A DNA stretch of 8,434 nucleotides. Source: Sporomusaceae bacterium. GTDB lineage: Bacteria > Bacillota_C > Negativicutes > Sporomusales_B > UBA7701. This document shows positions 2 to 8,434 of this stretch, piece after piece (within the stretch, counting starts at the first letter, position 1; each line of letters opens with the position of its first letter). The translations under genes and the position numbers were made by a program. Location of the stretch: positions 1 through 8,434 of the forward strand of contig JALHDI010000154.1 in NCBI GenBank assembly GCA_022839045.1. The letters run 5' to 3'. Below the pieces are notes generated by a model. That model was not told where the DNA came from, searched no databases, and saw only the letters and a list, made by a program, of their open reading frames with translations.

Positions 2-3000
2 CACGGCGGCCCAGACGCGCTGGCCAGCACGGCGGCCAACTGGTCGCTCGGGCACGCCCCGACCAATACGGATGCGGTCATCTTCCTCGGACCCTTCGCC
101 TCGCAACCCGACATGACCTGGGATCTGACGAACAGTGTGGCAGAGTGGCTGCAAACGGGACTTTACACCGGCACGGTGGCGGTGCCGGCGAGCGCCGCCA
201 TGCGGTTCAAGGTGGCCGGCGACATTCACCTTGAGGGCGGCAACATGGTCTTCGCCGGCGATCCGAACGTCATCGGCGGCGGCACGGAAAGCGTCAAGCA
301 CGGGATCGGCTACACGATCGAGGCGGCGAACCTCTTCGTCGGGACCAATGCGACGCTGCATGCCGACGGCAAGGGCTTCCCGGTCCGGCAGGGGCCCGGC
401 AAGGGCAGCACCTACGTCGGAGCGAGCCACGGCGGCGTCGGCGGCATCAACAGCCTCTCCTACGTCCAGCCGCTCCGCTACGGGACGGTGGCCGGCCCCA
501 CGGCGCTGGGCAGCGGCGGCGAGGACAAGGCGGGCGGCGGCGCGCTGAAGATCGCGGTCTCGGGGACGGTGACGGTCCACGGCCGCCTTTCGGCCGACGC
601 GCTTCCGGGCGTGAACGGCGGCGGCTCCGGCGGCTCGGTCTGGATCGCCTCGGGGACGCTGCGCGGCACGGGGCGCATCCCCGCCAACGGAGGCACGAGC
701 AGCAACGTCGCATGCCACGGCGGCGGAGAGCGCGTCGACATCGGCGGCACGGTCAACGACTTCGCCGGCGATCTGCTGGCCAACGGCTACGGCGGCTCGA
801 GCTACAAGCGCGGCACCACGGGCTCTATCCTGCTGCCGCAGTCGTCCGGCGTCGGCCTGACCTTGGCCCATTTCGCGCCAACCCGCAGCATCGCCTTCGG
901 CAACGCCGTCGCGTTCGGCGCCGCGACCATCCCGGCCGCGGTCACGGTGACGCTCGACGCCAACGAAGGCGACAACCACTTCGGCTTCGACACGCTGACC
1001 ATCGCGAACGGCGGAACCGTCGCCTGTCTGGGCAACGTGCTGGTCACCAACGAAGCCGCAGGCGGCACGGGCGCCAACCGCTACGGCGAGGGCGTCGCGA
1101 TCACCGTGACGAAGCTCATGATCGACGCGGGCGGGGCCTTGCAGGCGGACGACGGCGGCTTCGGCCCCGGAGCCGGGCCCGGAGGATCGGGGTCTTATCT
1201 CTACGGCGGCGGCTACGGCGGCCGCGGCGGCGTCAACAATGCGGAGGGGTTCGCCAAGGCCATCGCCGCCATGAAGCCGTGCTACGGCAGCGCCTACGGC
1301 CCGACGGCGCTGGGCAGCGGCGGCAGCGGCAACGGCGGCGCGATCAAGGTGACGGTCGTCGACACGGCCACGGTCAACGGGCGCCTCTCGGCCAGCTCGA
1401 TGTTCCAAAATCAAAACGCCTCGCTCGGTTCCGGTGGCTCGGTCTGGATCACGGGAGGCACGCTGGAAGGGAGCGGCGTGATCGCCGCCAACGCCTCGCT
1501 GGCCAGCTGCACGGTGGCCGATCACGGCACGGCGGGCGTCGTCCAGAGCGGTTCGGCCGTCGTGGCGATCACAAACTCTATCGTCTGCTTCAACCGGGAC
1601 GATCTCGTCGGCGCGGTCTCGGCGGTCTTCTCGAGCATCGGCGACGACGGCGCCGCCGACCCGCTCTTCGAATACGGGTACTACCTGGCCGCCGGCAGCC
1701 CCTGTCTGGGCGCGGGGTCGGCCACGGCCGCGACCCTGGGCCTGGACGGCTACGCGAAGAACAGCGCGGGCGACACCTACGGGCCGACGGAAACGGTCAA
1801 CAGGGGGTTCCACTATCCGCACGGCTTCGACATGCAGTACCCCGACATCTACGTCGCGCCGACGGGCGACGACACGCTCAACGACGGCAAGACCTCCGGC
1901 CAGCCCTTCCGCTCCGTCACAAAAGCGCTGGCCACGGCGCACGATGGCACGCGCATCCACGTGGCGGCCGGCGACTACACCAAGGCGACCGAGACGTATC
2001 CGCTCGCGCTCGTGGACAAGATCGGCGTCTCCATCGCCGGCACGAACGCCGCGTTGACGCGCCTCGACGCCGGGGCCCAATCCGGCAAGCGCGTGTTGTC
2101 CGCCAAGAACGCGCACCGGCTTGCAATCGGCGGCCTCACCCTGGCGGGCGGCAGCGCCAACGAGGGCGCGGGCGCGCGGTTCGAGAATAGCCGGAACGTG
2201 TCGCTGACGGACTGCACGATCCGCGACAACGCCTACACCGCCTCCGGCGCCGCGTTTTCGGGCGGCGGCATCTACGCCACGGCCGAAACCTCGCTGACGC
2301 TGACCGGCTGCACCGTGCGCGACAACCTGATTTACCAGCCCAACAGCGGCGTCGGGGGCGTGAAGGGCGGCGGAATCTATTCCGACGGGGCGCTGGCGAT
2401 GCGGGACACGCTCGTCTTCAACAACAGCCTCTCCCACGCTGGCGTCAACAAGACGCAGGGCTGCGGCATCTACTTCGGCGGCGACTCGCTGGACTTGTTC
2501 AACGTGCTGCTCTCGGGCAACACGGCGGCAAATAAGTTGGAAGCCGCGGGCGCGGTCTACGTCGCCGCCGGCAGTGCCTCGCTGGCCAGCTGCACAGTGG
2601 CCGAGCACGGCACGGCGGGCGTTGTCCAGAGCGGCGCGGCCGTCGTCGCGATGACCAACTCCATCGTCTGCTTCAACCGGGACGATCTCGTCGGCGCGGT
2701 CTCGGCGGTCTTCTCCAGCATCGGCGACGACGGCGCCGCCGACCCCCTCTTCGAATACGGGTACTACCTGGCCGCCGGCAGCCCCTGCCTGGGGGCGGGA
2801 TCGGCCACGGCCGCCAGCCTAGGCCTGGACGGCTACGCCAAGAACGTTGCAGGCGATGTGTATGGGTCGACGGATATTGTCAACATGGGGTTCCACTATC
2901 CAACGGGTTTCAACATCCAGTATTCCGACATCTACGTGGCAACTACAGGCGACGACACGCTCAACGACGGAAAGTCGGCGGAACAGCCCTTCCGCACCGT

Positions 3001-5056
3001 CACCAAGGCCTTGGCGACGGCGCATCATGGCACGCGCATCCACATAGCGGCGGGCGATTACACCAAGGCCACCGAGACGTATCCCCTTGTCCTCTCCGAC
3101 AAGACCGGCGTCGAAATAATCGGCGCGAGTGACGCTCTTACCAAGCTGGACGCCGGAGTCCAAACCGGCAAACGCGTGATGGAGACGAAGTGGGCGCACC
3201 GCCTTTCGATATCGGGAGTCACCTTCACCGGCGGCAATGCCAACGAAGGGGCCGGCCTGCGCCTCGAGAACAGCCGGCAAGTCCTGCTTGAGAATTGCAC
3301 GATCAGTAAAAACGAATATTCGGTCAACGCCGGGTCTAACGCTGGCGGGGGTGTTTATGTCACGGGCGATGCGTCTCTGGCTCTCATCGGCTGCACGATC
3401 CGCGAGAACCGGCTGCACCAGCCCTACACCGGAGCGTCGACCGCCAAGGGCGGTGGAATATATTCCGCTGGGACGTTGGCGCTACGGGACACCGCCATTG
3501 TGAACAACTCCCTGACCCATGCGGTCGCTAACAAGACGGAAGGCTGCGGGCTCTATTTTGGCGGCGACAATCTGGAAATGTTCAACGTCCTCGTCTCCGG
3601 CAACACCGTGTCGTTTCAGGATGCCGGCGGCGCTATTGGCATCGCCGCTGGCGGCGCATCGCTGGCCAACATCACGGTTGCCGACAACGCGTCGGCGGGC
3701 GTCGTCCAGTCCGGCACTGCGGTCGTCGCGGTCACCAACTCCATAGTATGGGGCAACGTCGGCGAGCTCGTCGGCACGGCGTCGGTGGGCTTCTCCAGCA
3801 TCGGCGTCGATCCGCTTTTCGAGTATGGCTATTACCTTTCCGCTTCGAGCCCATCTCTTGGGGCGGGTTCCGCGACGGCGGGGAGCCTGGGTCTTGCATC
3901 ATACGCGAAGAACAGCGCCGGCGATGCGTACGGTCCGACCGATGTTGTCAACATGGGGTTCCACTATCCGTCGGGATTCGATCTTCAATACGCCGACATA
4001 TACGTGGCGCCGACGGGTGACGACACCCTCAACGACGGAAAGTCGTCTGAACAGCCCTTCCAAACTGTTACCAAGGCACTGGCAATGGCTCATCACGACA
4101 CGCGCATCCATCTCGCGGCAGGCGACTACACCAAAGCCACCGAGACGTTTCCACTTGTCTTCCCCGATAAGACCGGCGTGTCCATCATAGGCACGAACGC
4201 CGCGATTACCAAGATTGATGCCGGCATCCAGTCCGGCAAACGCGTGATGGATGTAAAGTGGGCACACCGACTTTCGATTTCCAGCGTCACATTCACAGGC
4301 GGCAACGTAAACCAAGGGGCAGGTATGCGCTTCGAAAATTGCCGGAGCGTCCTCTTGACGGACTGCGCGATCACCAACAACACATACTCTAGTTCAGGTG
4401 ATTCTTGGCAACCGGATCCAGCAGACCTACGTCAATGCGCCGGCTGCGAAGGGTGCCGGGATCTATTCGACAGGAACGCTGGTGCTGCGGAACACGGTCG
4501 TCGCCGACAACACTCTGACCCATGCGAGCGCCAACAGGACGGAAGGCTCCGGAATCTACTTCTCCGGGGATTCGCTGGCGCTGTTCAACTCTCTTCTCAT
4601 CGACAACGCCGCATCGCAGCAGGATGTCGCTGGCGCTGTTTACGTCGCCTCCGGCCCCGCCGCTCTGACCAACTGCACGGTCGCGGCCAACATAGGTGGC
4701 GGCGTCCGCCGTTCGGGCGGCACGGTGGAGGCCGTCAATTCGATCCTCTGGGGCAACGGCGTGGACAGCAGGGCGCGGTCTCGATCGCGTACTCCTGCGT
4801 CTCCAACGGCGTCGACTACGTGGACGGCGGGCACAACGTCACTGCGGCGGCGTTGCCATTCCAGCTCTTCGTCGACGCGGCGGCGGGGGACTACCGCCTG
4901 GCGGACGGCTCGCCCTGCGTCAACGCGGGTCTCAATCAGCCGTGGATGGCCGGCGCGACCGATCTCTCCGGCCTGCGCCGCGTCATGGCCGGCGTCGTGG
5001 ACATGGGCGCGTACGAGTGGGAGCCGCCGGCGGCCACGCTGCTGATCATCCGATGA
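2..5056 (+). CDS. Giant right-handed beta-helix repeat protein with glycine-rich N-terminal domains and DUF1565-like units (5'-partial, internally frameshifted)
   Basis: The frame is open from base 2 to the TGA at 5054-5056 (1684 codons in the window). The residues before the first ATG at 113 (ANWSLGHAPTNTDAVIFLG) read as good protein, so the true start lies upstream. Order of parts: N-terminal linker; two glycine-rich domains sharing GPTALGSGG and GGSVWI; the tail of a beta-helix unit; then units that each begin DIYVAxTGDDTLNDGK, continue QPFxxVTKALA, RIHxAAGDYTKATET and LxxDKxGVxIxG, and run into Asn/Gly-rich coils (xxNSLxHA, GGGIYS, CTIRxN). The opening of each unit matches the DUF1565 pattern seen at the start of parallel beta-helix (pectate-lyase-like) proteins. 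The end (SPCVNAG, then DLSGLRR, then VDMGAYEW) is the usual closing signature of such proteins in PVC bacteria. Role inferred: exported adhesin or matrix protein, possibly binding polysaccharide. No catalytic motif, transmembrane anchor or sorting tail is visible; the signal peptide would lie outside the window. Codons from about 4400 to 4772 are out of frame with respect to the repeat sense. Confidence 0.85.
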   Translation, partial: HGGPDALASTAANWSLGHAPTNTDAVIFLGPFASQPDMTWDLTNSVAEWLQTGLYTGTVAVPASAAMRFKVAGDIHLEGGNMVFAGDPNVIGGGTESVKHGIGYTIEAANLFVGTNATLHADGKGFPVRQGPGKGSTYVGASHGGVGGINSLSYVQPLRYGTVAGPTALGSGGEDKAGGGALKIAVSGTVTVHGRLSADALPGVNGGGSGGSVWIASGTLRGTGRIPANGGTSSNVACHGGGERVDIGGTVNDFAGDLLANGYGGSSYKRGTTGSILLPQSSGVGLTLAHFAPTRSIAFGNAVAFGAATIPAAVTVTLDANEGDNHFGFDTLTIANGGTVACLGNVLVTNEAAGGTGANRYGEGVAITVTKLMIDAGGALQADDGGFGPGAGPGGSGSYLYGGGYGGRGGVNNAEGFAKAIAAMKPCYGSAYGPTALGSGGSGNGGAIKVTVVDTATVNGRLSASSMFQNQNASLGSGGSVWITGGTLEGSGVIAANASLASCTVADHGTAGVVQSGSAVVAITNSIVCFNRDDLVGAVSAVFSSIGDDGAADPLFEYGYYLAAGSPCLGAGSATAATLGLDGYAKNSAGDTYGPTETVNRGFHYPHGFDMQYPDIYVAPTGDDTLNDGKTSGQPFRSVTKALATAHDGTRIHVAAGDYTKATETYPLALVDKIGVSIAGTNAALTRLDAGAQSGKRVLSAKNAHRLAIGGLTLAGGSANEGAGARFENSRNVSLTDCTIRDNAYTASGAAFSGGGIYATAETSLTLTGCTVRDNLIYQPNSGVGGVKGGGIYSDGALAMRDTLVFNNSLSHAGVNKTQGCGIYFGGDSLDLFNVLLSGNTAANKLEAAGAVYVAAGSASLASCTVAEHGTAGVVQSGAAVVAMTNSIVCFNRDDLVGAVSAVFSSIGDDGAADPLFEYGYYLAAGSPCLGAGSATAASLGLDGYAKNVAGDVYGSTDIVNMGFHYPTGFNIQYSDIYVATTGDDTLNDGKSAEQPFRTVTKALATAHHGTRIHIAAGDYTKATETYPLVLSDKTGVEIIGASDALTKLDAGVQTGKRVMETKWAHRLSISGVTFTGGNANEGAGLRLENSRQVLLENCTISKNEYSVNAGSNAGGGVYVTGDASLALIGCTIRENRLHQPYTGASTAKGGGIYSAGTLALRDTAIVNNSLTHAVANKTEGCGLYFGGDNLEMFNVLVSGNTVSFQDAGGAIGIAAGGASLANITVADNASAGVVQSGTAVVAVTNSIVWGNVGELVGTASVGFSSIGVDPLFEYGYYLSASSPSLGAGSATAGSLGLASYAKNSAGDAYGPTDVVNMGFHYPSGFDLQYADIYVAPTGDDTLNDGKSSEQPFQTVTKALAMAHHDTRIHLAAGDYTKATETFPLVFPDKTGVSIIGTNAAITKIDAGIQSGKRVMDVKWAHRLSISSVTFTGGNVNQGAGMRFENCRSVLLTDCAITNNTYSSSGDSWQPDPADLRQCAGCEGCRDLFDRNAGAAEHGRRRQHSDPCERQQDGRLRNLLLRGFAGAVQLSSHRQRRIAAGCRWRCLRRLRPRRSDQLHGRGQHRWRRPPFGRHGGGRQFDPLGQRRGQQGAVSIAYSCVSNGVDYVDGGHNVTAAALPFQLFVDAAAGDYRLADGSPCVNAGLNQPWMAGATDLSGLRRVMAGVVDMGAYEWEPPAATLLIIR
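314..757 (+). repeat. Glycine-rich domain, copy 1 (coding)
   Basis: First of two related glycine-rich domains inside the giant protein. Landmarks are LHADGKGF, GGVGG, GPTALGSGG (494-520), GGALKI, GRLSA, GGSVWI (629-646), GTGRIPANGG and GGGERVDIGG. The alternation of short beta-like stretches with GG-rich turns looks like a repetitive beta-helical or beta-roll fold. This copy has a complete end (NGG, about 10 residues, then GGGERVDI), which shows what copy 2 lacks. I do not recognise a named family. Confidence 0.6.
1100..1492 (+). repeat. Glycine-rich domain, copy 2, C-terminally truncated (coding)
   Basis: Second copy of the glycine-rich domain. It aligns with copy 1 at a fixed offset of 804 bases over GPTALGSGG (1298-1324), GGAIKV, GRLSA, GGSVWI (from 1433) and GSGVIAAN. 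Copy 1 continues NGG...GGGERVDIGG at this point, but copy 2 stops after IAAN (Asn codon 1490-1492). The next codon already belongs to a beta-helix unit tail. The domain is therefore truncated by about 20 residues relative to copy 1. Confidence 0.6.
1493..1843 (+). repeat. Partial beta-helix unit (unit 0), C-terminal third only
   Basis: Begins ASLASCTVADHGTAGVVQSG and corresponds codon for codon to 2576-2926 of unit 1 at an offset of 1083 bases. It contains TNSIVCFNRDDLVGAVSAVFSSIGDD in segments, DPLFEYGYYLAAGSPCLGAG and GFHYPHGF. The first 244 codons of the unit (counterpart of 1844-2575), including the DUF1565-like opening, are absent. It is nearly identical in DNA to the same part of unit 1: 1580-1704 against 2663-2787 differs at only two positions, so the two copies diverged recently or are kept alike by gene conversion. 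Confidence 0.8.
1844..2926 (+). repeat. Beta-helix unit 1, full length (361 codons)
   Basis: Full unit opening DIYVAPTGDDTLNDGK at 1844, followed by QPFRSVTKALATAH, RIHVAAGDYTKATET and GKRVLSAKNAHRLAIGG. The coil region carries CTIRDN, GGGIYA, CTVRDN, GGGIYS and GCGIYFGGDSLDLFN, ending with the conserved tail NSIVCFN, DPLFEYGYYLAAGSP and GFHYPTGFNIQYS. The opening matches the DUF1565 pattern; the coils resemble parallel beta-helix repeats with Asn and small residues at turns. Full length is 1083 bases. Confidence 0.8.
2927..3994 (+). repeat. Beta-helix unit 2, full length (356 codons)
   Basis: Same order of motifs as unit 1, starting DIYVATTGDDTLNDGK. It is 15 bases shorter, fully explained by one residue fewer near SFQDAGGAIG, the absence of the DDGAA insert after SSIG (five residues in unit 1), and one residue more elsewhere or an equivalent gap placement. 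Its protein sequence is closer to unit 3 (GKRVM, KWAHRLSIS, VTFTGGN) than to unit 1. Its DNA uses more A/T at third positions than units 0 and 1. Confidence 0.8.
3995..4772 (+). repeat. Beta-helix unit 3, damaged by a 65-base deletion and a second indel
   Basis: Starts DIYVAPTGDDTLNDGK and follows unit 2 closely up to TNNTYSSSG (Gly codon 4397-4399). The segment expected next, which in unit 2 reads about GGGVYVTGDASLALIGCT, is missing. Homology resumes one base out of frame at 4401 (ILGNRIQQTY against unit 2 IRENRLHQPY) and continues as GAGIYSTGTLVLRNT, GSGIYFSGDSLALFN and NSILWGNGVDS. Between the shared Tyr codon and Asn-Arg pair, unit 2 has 87 bases and unit 3 has 22, a shortfall of exactly 65. 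Confidence 0.8.
4400..4772 (+). other. Out-of-frame stretch inside the giant beta-helix gene
   Basis: In the open frame this stretch encodes an Arg/Cys-rich sequence (QCAGCEGC, RRRQHSD, RCLRRLRPRR) with no likeness to the units. The frame one base later (4401 onward) gives clear unit sequence up to SILWGNGVDS near 4767. The original frame becomes sensible again from about 4772 (GAVSIAYSCVSNG). The restoring change is equivalent to one lost base around 4767-4772; for example one missing C in a Ser-Gln codon pair would give it. The stretch spans about 124 codons and has no stop in either frame. It may be a real paired mutation or two assembly errors. Confidence 0.75.
4773..5053 (+). other. C-terminal cap of the beta-helix protein
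   Basis: After unit 3 the protein does not repeat the GFHYP tail. It ends differently: GAVSIAYSCVSNG, GGHNVTA, LFVDAAAGDYRLADGSP, CVNAG, DLSGLRRV and VDMGAYEW, then EPPAATLLIIR and stop. The DYRLxxGSPCxNAG...D(I/M)GAYE ending is typical of bacterial choice-of-anchor or parallel beta-helix proteins in PVC lineages (family knowledge). No transmembrane helix or PEP-CTERM-like tail follows, so the anchor, if any, is not here. Confidence 0.65.
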
Positions 5057-6744
5057 TGGAACTCCATGCGGCTACGGATTTCGGCGACGAGTTCGTCGGA
5101 GGCGATCGGTTCTACGACCGCGCGAACATCGACGCGCTGATGGCGTATCTCGCGTCGATGGGCGTCAAGCGGCTGGAATGGATCTACCACTGCTGGCTGG
5201 CGTTCGACGACTCGTACCCTCTCGGCTTCGACATCGAAGCCGAGGCGGTTCGCGCCGCGCATCGGCACGGCCTCGAATTCGTGGCGGTCATCAAGCCCTT
5301 CGAGTGCCTGGGGCTTTTTCTGCTGCCCCATGCGTTCCCCATTGCGAAGTCCGAGTGCTGGAACAGCGTCCGCGGCCTCTTCCATCAAGTCTCCGATCTG
5401 GCGATCGCCCGGCCGGACTTGTGCCTGAAGCGCAAGCCCGGCGTCCGCGATCCGGGCGGGCCGGTGGCGGCCGTCCGCCTCGTCAAGGCCGACGACCGCC
5501 CCAGTGGACTGGAGGCGGACGACCTTTCGATCTGGACGAGCCATGAGAACGGCTCGTGGTCGCGCTACGAAGGCCCGTTTCGCCTGGAACAATCGGTCGA
5601 ATGGCGGCCGCTGTTCCCCAAGCCGGGCAACTGCCGCATCCTGACGTTGTCCGGGCTGGCGATTCCCGAGAGCCGGCGCTACATCGAGGTGCGCACCCGC
5701 CGCCCCGATCCGAACGGGGATTTCGTGTGCGACCTGGAGTCGGTCGTCGAACTCGTCGGGGCTGACGGCGCGGTCCTTCCCCAAACGCCGCCGGGCCTGA
5801 TATTCGAGCGCGACCGCTTCGGCCCGCTCAAGTCCCCGGCGTTCCGGAAGGTAACGCGCCACTGGAACACGCCGGAAGTCGAGGCGCTGCTCGCCGGGGC
5901 GCAGGAGCGTCTGGCGCAATGGAACGCCGACACGCGCGACTACGCCCACAAGGGGCAGCCCTACGTGGCCTACGACTTCAACCGCCGCGGGCGCGTGGCG
6001 GTCGCGCGCGGCGTGGACGAGGCGCTCCCCATTCCTCATCCCGTCTACCCTGAGGTGCGCGCGTACTGGCTGTCAAAGGCGCGCCGCTTCCTCGACTTGG
6101 GCGCGGACGGGATCAACTTCCGCCACTGCACCCATTTCAACCAGTACGATCATCGCGAGTACGGGTTCAACGAGCCTGTCTTAAAGCGCGCGGGCGGGAG
6201 CCTCAACATGGGCGAGGTGGCCCGGGTGAACGGCGAGGCCTACACGCAGCTCCTGCGCGAGGCCGCGGCGCTGACCCATTCGCACGGCAAGCCCTTCGGC
6301 GTGCACGTCCTGACGCACTACTTGCGGGCTTCGGAGGAAAACCGCGGCGATGCGATCATCGGTAACTTCGATCTGCCGTGGGAGACCTGGGTGCGCGAAT
6401 TCGCAGACTACGTCGTCTTTCGCGGCGCCATGGGCTGCCGGCCCGCGACCGTGCGTGAGGTCGTGGACCGCATCGGGCTTGTCTGCCGAGAGGCGGGCAA
6501 GCCCCTCGTCTACCAGTCCAACCGCCGCCAGTATTCGTTCGACGGGCCGTTGCCGGTGCAGGATCACGAGCTGGAGTGGGTGACCCGTCATCCGGACGTG
6601 TCCGCCTACCAGCTCTACGAGACGGCCTCGTTCACCCGGCTCGACGCGCAAGGCCGGCTGGAGGGCAGCGAGGCCGTCCGGGCGCTTGTCAGCAAACACG
6701 GGTTTGCCTCCCGGCTCTCTCGCTTACCGAAACATAATCCTTAA
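5053..6744 (+). CDS. TIM-barrel, glycoside-hydrolase-like (GHL10-like) hypothetical protein with a beta-rich insert
   Basis: Encodes 563 residues from the ATG at 5053; a second in-frame ATG at 5056 is equally possible. The first ATG overlaps the upstream TGA as ATGA, and I see no good Shine-Dalgarno sequence before it, which favours translational coupling. There is no signal peptide, so a cytoplasmic location is likely. Probable barrel strands in order: VKRLEWIYH (38-46), LEFVAVIKPFE (74-84), PYVAYDFN (303-310), ADGINFRHCTHF (351-362), KPFGVHVLTH (413-422), DYVVFRGAMG (452-461), KPLVYQSNR (484-492) and VSAYQLYE (516-523). Between strands 2 and 3 a segment of roughly residues 157-257 is beta-rich (SIWTSHENGSW, RILTLSGLAIP, RYIEVRTR, ESVVELVGADG) and looks like an inserted beta-sandwich. 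Acidic candidates for an active site are Glu42, Glu84, Asp308, Asp352, Asp366, Glu369 and Glu374; none is proven. The layout resembles GHL10-type (glycosyl-hydrolase-like 10/DUF187-like) proteins, but the exact family is unproven. Confidence 0.8.
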   Translation: MMELHAATDFGDEFVGGDRFYDRANIDALMAYLASMGVKRLEWIYHCWLAFDDSYPLGFDIEAEAVRAAHRHGLEFVAVIKPFECLGLFLLPHAFPIAKSECWNSVRGLFHQVSDLAIARPDLCLKRKPGVRDPGGPVAAVRLVKADDRPSGLEADDLSIWTSHENGSWSRYEGPFRLEQSVEWRPLFPKPGNCRILTLSGLAIPESRRYIEVRTRRPDPNGDFVCDLESVVELVGADGAVLPQTPPGLIFERDRFGPLKSPAFRKVTRHWNTPEVEALLAGAQERLAQWNADTRDYAHKGQPYVAYDFNRRGRVAVARGVDEALPIPHPVYPEVRAYWLSKARRFLDLGADGINFRHCTHFNQYDHREYGFNEPVLKRAGGSLNMGEVARVNGEAYTQLLREAAALTHSHGKPFGVHVLTHYLRASEENRGDAIIGNFDLPWETWVREFADYVVFRGAMGCRPATVREVVDRIGLVCREAGKPLVYQSNRRQYSFDGPLPVQDHELEWVTRHPDVSAYQLYETASFTRLDAQGRLEGSEAVRALVSKHGFASRLSRLPKHNP

Positions 6745-6873: not shown

Positions 6874-8434
6874 ATGAAAGCAATTCAACGTGTCGTCGCG
6901 GTCGTTCTGGTCGCGGGTTTGTCGTTCGTCTCCAACGCCGCCGATTTTCCGGCGTGGGGGAAAAAGGCGGCGATCACATTCTCCGGCTACACCGGGACGG
7001 AGACGCTCACGAACTTCCCGGCGCTGGTCGTGCTGGGGAGCGACACCATCGGCGGCTTCACGTACGCGGAGTGTTTGGAGGGCGGTGCAGACCTGCGCTT
7101 TTCGGACTCGTTGGGAACCGTCGAGCTGCCCTACGAAATCGAGCGGTGGAATCCGGCGGGGCGATCGCTGGTCTGGGTGCGCGTGCCGGAACTGGTGGAT
7201 GCTGGAACGTCGATCACGGCCTACTGGAACCGGGCGGGCCAGACGGCGCCGGACTACACGACCAACGGGACGGTCTGGGCGAACGGCTACGTGGCCGTGT
7301 ACCACCTCGGCGGGAGCGAATCCACGCTGTCCGATTCCAGTCCGCTGCTCAATCCGGCCGCCCAGTACGGTGTTGTCCAGCAGGGCGCGGTCGGCGCGGT
7401 TGGCGAGGCCGTTGGCTGGCCTGATGGCAACAACGACTGGTTGCAGGCCCCGGATCGAAGCGAACTCGACGGCATGGGCCAGCTCACGCTCCAGTGCTGG
7501 ATGTACGACACGCAGAACGACGTGCAGCCCCGCGGACTGATTTCAAAGCGTACGTCGTCCTCGATCCGGTCCTACTATCTGTTCAAATACACCAATCGCA
7601 ACCTCTTTTTTCAGATTGGCGGGGCAGGCGGTGAATTCAGCAATACCGTGACGGACGCAAACCGGTGGTATTTTGTCACGGCCACCTACGACAAGAACCT
7701 TGCCAGCAATCGCATGAAGGTGTATCTCGACGGACTCTACAAGAGCGCGCGAAACGAGGCGTCCGGCAACGTGCCTGTCACGGCGGCGGGTCTGTATCTG
7801 GGCATCCTCAACGCCTCCTATGGAAACGCATGGAAGGGGCGGCTCGACGAAGTCCGGGTGTCCAACGTGACTCGGTCGCCAAACTGGATTCAGGCGGACT
7901 ACCTCACCATGATCTCCAACACCGTCTTTCAGACGTACGGCGAGGCGCAGGGCGCGGTGCCGGGGATGCCGTCCATCACGGTCGGCGTGGCGACGAACAT
8001 CACCGCATCCTCCGCCTGGCTTTGCGGCAACCTCGTCTCGACGGGGGCCTCGGCCACAGCCGCGGTCGCCTACTGGGGCGCGACGGATGCCGGGACGAAC
8101 GCCGCGAACTGGGTTTCCTCCGCCACGCGCGCCGCGCCGCAGGCTCCGGGCGAATTCAGCATCCAGGCCACGGGACTTGCCGCCGATTCGACCTACTACT
8201 TCCGCGTCGCGGCCTCGAACGGCGCCGGCGTCGCCTGGTCCTACTACGGTGGGAACTTCATCACCGGCGAGCTGGCGCTCACGAAGACGTCCGACGCCGA
8301 CGAGGCGACGCTGACCCCCGGCGTCTTCACGGTCTCGCGCCCCGGCACGGCCACGAACGAGGCGCTGAGCGTGTCCTACGCGCAGACCGGCGGCACGGCG
8401 GATCCCGGCGTGGACTATGCGCCGCTTGGCGGCA
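6874..8434 (+). CDS. Secreted modular protein: signal peptide, DUF2341-like, LamG-like, fibronectin-III-like and Calx-beta-like domains (3'-partial)
   Basis: The frame is open from the ATG at 6874 to the window edge (520 complete codons). Residues 1-22 form a signal peptide: MKAIQR, then a hydrophobic VVAVVLVAGLSFV stretch, then SNA before the likely cleavage site. Residues about 32-130 match DUF2341 (ITFSGYTGTETLTNFPALV, DLRFSD, LPYEIERWNP, WVRVPEL, YWNRAG). Residues about 140-358 look like a LamG/concanavalin A-like domain (YVAVYHLGG, LTLQCWM, WYFVTATYD, VYLDG, GRLDEVRVSN, WIQADY). Residues about 366-460 resemble fibronectin type III (AWLCGNLVSTG, YYFRVAASNGAG). From about 467 the sequence fits a Calx-beta start (DADEATLTPGVFTVSR, GGTADPGVDY). 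Combinations of DUF2341 and LamG are usual in exported carbohydrate-binding or adhesive surface proteins. The C-terminal part, including any anchor or catalytic domain, lies beyond the window. Confidence 0.85.
   Translation, partial: MKAIQRVVAVVLVAGLSFVSNAADFPAWGKKAAITFSGYTGTETLTNFPALVVLGSDTIGGFTYAECLEGGADLRFSDSLGTVELPYEIERWNPAGRSLVWVRVPELVDAGTSITAYWNRAGQTAPDYTTNGTVWANGYVAVYHLGGSESTLSDSSPLLNPAAQYGVVQQGAVGAVGEAVGWPDGNNDWLQAPDRSELDGMGQLTLQCWMYDTQNDVQPRGLISKRTSSSIRSYYLFKYTNRNLFFQIGGAGGEFSNTVTDANRWYFVTATYDKNLASNRMKVYLDGLYKSARNEASGNVPVTAAGLYLGILNASYGNAWKGRLDEVRVSNVTRSPNWIQADYLTMISNTVFQTYGEAQGAVPGMPSITVGVATNITASSAWLCGNLVSTGASATAAVAYWGATDAGTNAANWVSSATRAAPQAPGEFSIQATGLAADSTYYFRVAASNGAGVAWSYYGGNFITGELALTKTSDADEATLTPGVFTVSRPGTATNEALSVSYAQTGGTADPGVDYAPLGG

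Follow-up and report, generated by a model that had tools for sequence, protein, structure and literature searches.

Is the giant open reading frame (ORF) of this contig as intact as it looks, or does it carry codons that are read in the wrong frame, and if so did the change arise in a living genome or in the contig? The first-pass annotation had proposed that losses of about 65 nt and 1 nt in the last of three repeat units compensate each other and flank a run of out-of-frame codons. We analysed the whole stretch of 8,434 nt (hereafter the window), in which the following features bear on the question.

2-5056, + strand: giant ORF for a beta-helix repeat protein, 1684 codons in the window, 5' end open.
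1811-2893, + strand: repeat unit 1, intact (direct repeats, spacing of 1083 to unit 2).
2894-3961, + strand: repeat unit 2, intact, used as the control unit (direct repeats).
3962-5056, + strand: repeat unit 3, terminal, with both frame changes (offsets, alignment, GC phase, codon HMM).
4388-4400, + strand: first frame change; units 1 and 2, and most of the relative units measured, have about 65 nt more here (offset, alignment).
4398-4769, + strand: stop-free segment of 124 codons whose homology is in phase 2, the shifted frame (Beta_helix, relatives, HMM).
4397-4768, + strand: the same stretch in the open frame, Arg-rich, with 6 Cys, no Lys and no relatives found.
4767-4772, + strand: second frame change, 1 nt missing relative to relatives (relatives, return of phase).
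4772-5056, + strand: choice-of-anchor Q cap and tail, in the original frame again (NF041518).
5053-6744, + strand: downstream gene, 563 aa, whose start codon shares bases with the giant ORF's stop codon (ATGA at 5053-5056).

Judged from its sequence, the giant ORF encodes a repeat protein of the right-handed beta-helix type, built of DUF1565 and Beta_helix units and ending in a choice-of-anchor Q part. Positions 2-4396 score 102.8 bits against PF07602 (DUF1565; gathering cut-off 20.3) and 60.6 bits against PF13229 (Beta_helix; 25.9), and positions 4763-5053 score 34.6 bits against NF041518 (choice-of-anchor Q; cut-off 25, E 1.7e-8). The score of 2-4396 against NF047854 (LIC10774/LIC10365 surface protein) was 103.8 bits, below the equivalog cut-off of 380. 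Proteins of the same DUF1565, Beta_helix and choice-of-anchor Q make-up, several of which belong to Kiritimatiellae or other PVC bacteria, match units 1 and 2, most of unit 3 and the cap. The cap is matched by 102 of 104 relatives, which is no independent count because the queries used to retrieve the relatives contained it.

The first frame change is seen as a step in the spacing of the repeats. Units 2 and 3 are offset by 1068 for the repeat copy that ends at 4101 and by 1003 for the one that begins at 4448, so that 65 nt have gone, and in the pairwise alignment of units the gap opens right after 4396, with a safe range of 4388-4400. In the 30 relative units measured at this site (from 14 of 88 proteins), the surplus over the window is 15-23 residues in 21, about one rung more, 44-87 residues in five and fewer in four. 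A loss of about 65 nt amounts to roughly one helix rung; by the letters of the sequence, an in-frame loss of 66 nt (one rung) with a gain of 1 nt would be indistinguishable from it. At the second site the window has two bases where relatives have a codon, which places the loss of 1 nt within 4767-4772. Among 12 relative units, exactly one additional residue is present here in six, two in two, none in one and other values in three, and the relative P0089 likewise has one more. Neither indel is a multiple of three and their sum, 66 nt, is.

Between these points the reading frame signal moves. Near 4390 the distribution of GC over the codon phases shifts, and near 4770 it reverts. Trained on the remainder of the window, a codon-usage HMM reported a sole shifted segment in the three ORFs tested, at 4391-4768 (126 codons, 112.4 nats), so the frame changes are not scattered as they would be in an error-rich contig. 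The shifted frame resembles Beta_helix at 21.3 bits (E 2.3e-4), short of the 25.9 cut-off, and is matched by 75 of the 104 relatives at E<=1e-3, whereas the open frame is matched by none of the 104 at this threshold and, at E<=0.01, by no sequence among 132 database candidates. The segment is thus open in one frame and homologous to relatives in another. Offsets, alignment, GC phase, codon HMM and relatives together confirm that two compensating length changes hide about 124 codons read in the wrong frame. The proposed pair of losses, the homology confined to the shifted frame and the acceptance of the whole by a plain ORF call are all borne out, and the comparison with related genes that had been suggested as a check finds the Arg/Cys-rich version in none of them.

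We then considered the open-frame stretch itself, for which a novel basic, Cys-rich segment had been envisaged. It contains 22.6% Arg, 4.8% Cys and no Lys. The same-shift frame elsewhere in the window averages 25.4% Arg, and 221 of 543 same-shift windows (which overlap) are free of stops, so an open stretch of such length is unremarkable. Cys lies about 2 SD above the mean of the same-shift windows (1.8%, SD 1.5), and the translation has six Cys, among them a CxxCxxC pattern. Unit 2, the control, was modelled as a beta-helix (mean pLDDT 82.9), and Foldseek matched this model to beta-helix enzymes (best E 2e-5, TM-scores by query mostly 0.3-0.55). The open-frame model of unit 3 has a mean pLDDT of 50.4, dropping to about 24-43 within the segment, a comparison of little weight because the alignments have 7 rows and a segment without relatives would model poorly in any case. 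With average Arg for the frame, no match among the relatives or candidates and this low model confidence, the reading of the stretch as a meaningful domain is not supported.

The old frame bears on the age of the change. Of the 24 relatives that could be scored, 23 match the core of the segment better than they match unit 1 or unit 2, and its dN/dS in the old frame is 0.50 against unit 1 and 0.46 against unit 2, compared to 0.48 between units 1 and 2. In ungapped counts, differences at codon positions 1 to 3 are 0.33, 0.24 and 0.38 between the segment and unit 2, 0.29, 0.17 and 0.39 between units 1 and 2 over the segment's counterpart, and 0.17, 0.07 and 0.40 in the DUF1565 part, so that third-position bias is weaker in the segment than in either of the others. 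Codon-aligned second-position differences are 0.32 and 0.28 for the segment against units 1 and 2, and 0.18 between units 1 and 2. P0089 is 41% identical to the segment and 57% and 60% identical to its flanks. The weaker bias and the extra second-position change may reflect slight decay or merely an older unit 3. As the old frame is without clear decay, the shift is either very young or present in the contig only.

No near-identical copy was found in any set searched. Among long relatives (88 proteins at E<=1e-5, from the 7988 scored candidates that shared the most words with the query), the best five of the 88 proteins reach 39-44% identity over 38-42% of the query; among shorter proteins (16 at E<=1e-10) the best has 57% over 32%; and in 345 genomes of the class, 13 of which have a match at E<=1e-12, the best identity is 48%. 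The plasmids and viral contigs searched likewise held none. For comparison we scanned 64 control ORFs, each 400 codons or longer, from 20 regions (32 of 38 listed places, 11 of 13 genomes; the place of L009 is among the six left out). Twenty-three of them (27,637 codons) have matches to pieces of unit 3, and the others are further ORFs of the same regions. None of the 64 has a compensated shifted segment, at a power per genome of 96-100% for segments of 124 codons and 11-48% for 40 codons. Seven, two of them relatives, have a shifted stretch at the 5' end, which is probably run-in ahead of the true start. In another scan, of 70 ORFs, including those of the window, the ORFs of three relatives (L003, L004 and L009) also score for a shifted frame. 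The signal in L003 overlies an apparent gene in another frame. In L009 (G004:C220), the DUF1565 part and the helix with its cap lie in different frames, through a single change with no return.

The reading that we favour, at an even chance, is that two frameshifts, natural and very recent, compensate each other in the last repeat of a giant beta-helix protein, probably one of a Kiritimatiellae-like bacterium. A deletion of 65 nt, roughly one helix rung, would have broken the frame, and a single base would have been lost some 370 nt beyond it; combined, the losses would keep the ORF open and bring the C-terminal cap back into frame. The 124 intervening codons would fall in a frame that is usually Arg-rich and often stop-free under GC-rich codon usage. 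The resulting 124 residues, which we infer to be disordered, would probably split the last helical unit in two rather than form a new domain, and the intact units 1 and 2 would explain why they are tolerated. The change would then be present in a living genome, in a protein presumably located at the cell surface. Phase 0 has no stop between 4693 and 6742, so the first change without the second would extend the ORF to 6742 through the downstream gene, in that gene's frame, and the second without the first would give a stop at 5043. Most of the protein would thus survive with either change alone. Selection of the second indel for rescue of the cap, as had been suggested, is possible given that the cap is conserved, though none of these results demonstrates selection. 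It is improbable, in our view, that a living lineage makes this Arg-rich, six-Cys stretch as an overprinted product; if one does, a new domain of a repeat protein may be starting to arise by overprinting.

A natural event and an artefact are about equally likely. We place slightly short of an even chance the alternative that the terminal unit is intact in the genome, possibly shorter by one rung through an in-frame loss, and that each of the two points was altered in the contig by small errors of the consensus or by local misassembly. A contig error would leave the old frame looking just as it does, the compensated segment is absent from the ORFs around relatives, and in a published survey, in the passages of PMC8935012 used here, strict filters left only 6 of 624 candidate genes. 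Against this, no other frame change is seen in the three ORFs, and two errors about 370 nt apart must cancel exactly. The first-pass annotation had named an assembly fault in a repeat, and repeat collapse is unlikely, since the sequences around the two ends of the gap have no more than 5 nt in common in unit 2 and 9 nt in unit 1, and no word longer than 11 nt around the first junction is repeated within the window. Around the second junction the longest repeated word is 15 nt, common to 4766-4780 and 7378-7392; it is one of 7 repeats of at least 13 nt at non-unit offsets in the window, another of which is also 15 nt, and is therefore taken as chance. Small consensus errors at the two points are possible; neither junction has a homopolymer of four or more, although three G stand at 4771-4773.

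Two further explanations take the stretch or its frame as functional. An Arg/Cys-rich segment under selection would account for 124 open codons, for the Cys excess with its CxxCxxC pattern and for the somewhat raised second-position differences from units 1 and 2, but it has no relative among the 104 relatives, the 132 candidates or the ORFs around relatives, its Arg content and model confidence are as described, and its codons still fit the old frame and not the new one; we consider it very unlikely. Least credible of all is programmed ribosomal frameshifting, in which ribosomes would enter the segment's frame and then return, making an intact beta-helix. The old frame, being without clear decay, would suit it, but 4340-4860 contains no X XXY YYZ heptamer, the 90 nt after each point have no structure beyond chance (z -0.10 and 0.27) and the window has no Rfam match at gathering scores, so that neither slippery site nor stimulatory structure was identified. 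Two opposite shifts would also be required, and the absence of a rung that units 1 and 2 possess speaks for a deletion in DNA.

If the compensated frameshift is real, it is a long and very young one in a bacterial repeat protein, in which redundant repeats and GC-rich codon usage, with its long stop-free shifted frames, let a gene survive a change of frame. If it is an artefact, an intact-looking ORF call hides 124 wrong residues that codon-phase checks expose at once.

The event is of a known kind, a compensatory frameshift pair (pCFM) or 'frameshift scar', with a span here that exceeds the pairs given in the consulted portions of PMC8935012 and PMC8339072. In the Mycobacterium tuberculosis scars of the latter, as here, a wounding and a fixing indel lie inside one bacterial gene; as far as that portion goes, in the majority of two-indel scars there the indels are less than 10 nt apart, and the indels were checked against reads, whereas here they are about 370 nt apart and known from the contig alone. 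A computational survey of 50 proteomes (PMC12871928, in part) describes a gain of Arg in frameshifted tandem repeats, as in this segment; the shifts there are computed and do not represent an actual compensated pair. The six well-supported pairs in the excerpted text of PMC8935012 come from animals and have spans of 7-99 nt with indels of 1-2 nt, compared to a span of about 370 nt and one indel of about 65 nt in a single contig here. They nevertheless share with this locus two indels that are each out of triplet but together divisible by three, a change of residues limited to the stretch in between, and a position in a less conserved part of the protein: here, units 1 and 2 are 61% identical in the segment's stretch and 70% identical in the DUF1565 part.

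The frame changes discussed here lie in the giant ORF, which is followed by two further genes.

Gene layout of the window
2-5056, + strand: giant ORF, 5' end open (ORF call)
5053-6744, + strand: downstream gene, 563 aa, starting within the stop of the giant ORF
6874-8434: third gene, beginning only; large, with DUF2341 and Laminin_G_3 domains (domain search)

The giant ORF encodes a repeat protein with three units, direct repeats of about 1.07-1.1 kb each. In profile searches the units match DUF1565 and right-handed Beta_helix models, with choice-of-anchor Q at the end (the cap). An AlphaFold model of unit 2 has many short strands (mean pLDDT 82.9), and its closest PDB folds are beta-helix polysaccharide lyases and esterases, with modest TM-scores. 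We compared the ORF with 104 related proteins. Five loci were found in named genomes, recorded as PVC group, uncultured bacterium, Kiritimatiellae, Lentisphaerae and Clostridia, which would point to a Kiritimatiellae-like host. One relative, P0003, has an N-terminal Laminin_G_3 match, a domain also present in the third gene. It should also be noted that the first repeat (1426-1782) looks chimeric: near 1483 a Gly-rich N-terminal unit type, repeated at 535-689 and 1333-1493, appears to pass without a break in frame into the latter half of a beta-helix unit (90% identity to 2566-2865).

The first-pass annotation proposed that two compensating indels in unit 3, the terminal unit, hide about 124 out-of-frame codons, and the analysis confirms this. 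Measured on the repeat copy that begins at 4448, the offset between units 2 and 3 is 65 nt less than on the one that ends at 4101, and the alignment gap opens directly after 4396 (safe range 4388-4400). From 4388-4400 to about 4770 the codon position rich in GC moves over by one phase; after that it returns. A codon-usage HMM trained on the remainder of the window detected one shifted segment, 4391-4768 (112 nats), the sole shift among the three ORFs tested. At the first point, 21 of 30 relative units (from 14 of 88 proteins) have 15-23 additional residues, about one helix rung; five have 44-87 and four have fewer. At the second, exactly one codon stands opposite the window's two bases in 6 of 12 relative units, with one codon more in two, none in one and a different arrangement in three; the relative P0089 likewise has one codon there. 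These residue counts give a total change of 66 nt, which is divisible by three. A 66-nt in-frame deletion combined with the gain of one base and the loss of another would add up to the same total, a route indistinguishable by sequence. A 15-nt word is identical at 4766-4780, at the second junction, and at 7378-7392 in the third gene, probably by chance.

Repeat homology follows the shifted frame, as had been claimed: 4398-4769 read in that frame matches 75 of the 104 relatives at E<=1e-3, versus none for the open-frame segment. Searching the database for the open-frame segment, among proteins 0.55-1.75 times the ORF length, gave 132 candidates and no match at E<=0.01. Its Arg content also argues against a domain in what had been suggested to be a novel basic, Cys-rich segment. 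Among 543 overlapping 124-codon windows of the window's other coding DNA read in the same wrong frame, Arg averages 25.4% (22.6% in the segment) and 221 are stop-free; this reading gives 28.9% Arg in unit 1 and 26.6% in unit 2, with one stop apiece. Cys, at 4.8% versus a mean of 1.8% (SD 1.5), is about two SD high and the sole unusual feature. The frame shift is clear, but the residues it produces are what a shift of this type commonly gives; on present evidence the segment is no new domain.

No clear sign of decay is seen in the old frame. Segment dN/dS is 0.50 against unit 1 and 0.46 against unit 2 (0.48 between those units). The segment core is the best match of the three units in 23 of 24 relatives (those scoring >45 bits with any unit), averaging 61.8 bits versus 49.2 and 53.8 for the other two, a lead that may partly reflect the terminal position of unit 3 and of some relatives' matching units. 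When random drift of 0.1 per site was simulated, the unit 2 score, 324 at the start, fell to about 240. Other results point the opposite way: at second codon positions the segment differs by 0.32 from unit 1 and 0.28 from unit 2, somewhat more than the 0.18 by which those units differ mutually, and its third-position bias is weaker (ungapped counts). The absence of stops tells little, as 41% of copies so drifted remain stop-free. We conclude that the change is very young, or absent from the genome altogether.

We consider a natural compensated frameshift pair an even bet, and natural event and artefact stand nearly level. An artefact, with the changes present in the contig only, is a serious though slightly less probable explanation. 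The old frame, with no clear decay, fits it, as do the lack of a second genome to confirm the pair and a control in which none of 64 ORFs around relatives (53,093 codons, 11 genomes; relatives proper, 23 ORFs and 27,637 codons) carries such a segment. The window's downstream ORF 4696-6741 also scored as shifted in this control, being the same region viewed from an overlapping frame. However, the two changes cancel exactly and stand near each other, and the HMM found no further shift in the three ORFs tested. Repeat collapse, as in the suggested assembly fault in a repeat, is unlikely: within the window, neither junction has a homopolymer of >=4 or a repeated stretch long enough to mislead assembly. 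In a relative from genome G004 (L009, 70-1331), a single uncompensated change puts the DUF1565 part in one frame and the helix with the cap in another, which may reflect an error in the sequence or a gene that is broken.

If the pair is natural, the first change by itself would cost the ORF its cap and extend it to 6742, across the downstream gene and in the frame of that gene; the second by itself would end the ORF at 5043 with 91 residues altered. Together they bring cap and tail back in frame, at the cost of a last-unit helix modelled over only about 144 residues. In the unit 3 model, pLDDT per ten residues is 69-89 along the helix, except for 42 in its first ten; the segment has 24-43 and the cap 25-49. 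The low cap values tell little because the final stretch of the unit 2 control is also weak (52-68). The change may be tolerated because units 1 and 2 are intact.

At its C-terminus (5030-5053) the giant protein carries a short hydrophobic tail whose last residue is Arg. A choice-of-anchor-Q-like motif lies within the last 40 residues of 38 of the 104 relatives, 27 of them Arg-terminal, often as [GA][TS] plus hydrophobics and Arg. The phrase 'choice-of-anchor Q' was not found in the literature searched. Judged from sequence, tail and Arg are possibly an unannotated C-terminal signal. Searches of Pfam, NCBIfam, PHROGs and PADLOC gave no match for the 563-aa downstream gene, and no PDB hit fell below E 0.15; its relatives (29-45% identity) occur in 9 of 345 class genomes.

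Compensated pairs are known elsewhere. Published surveys describe 624 candidate genes in animals, six of which passed strict filters, with spans of 7-99 nt (PMC8935012), and 74 unique 'scars' among 5,977 M. tuberculosis isolates, most two-indel scars being <10 nt (PMC8339072); an Arg gain is reported for frameshifted repeats (PMC12871928). Compared with the animal pairs and M. tuberculosis scars as described there, the window's case appears to be of the same kind, merely longer.
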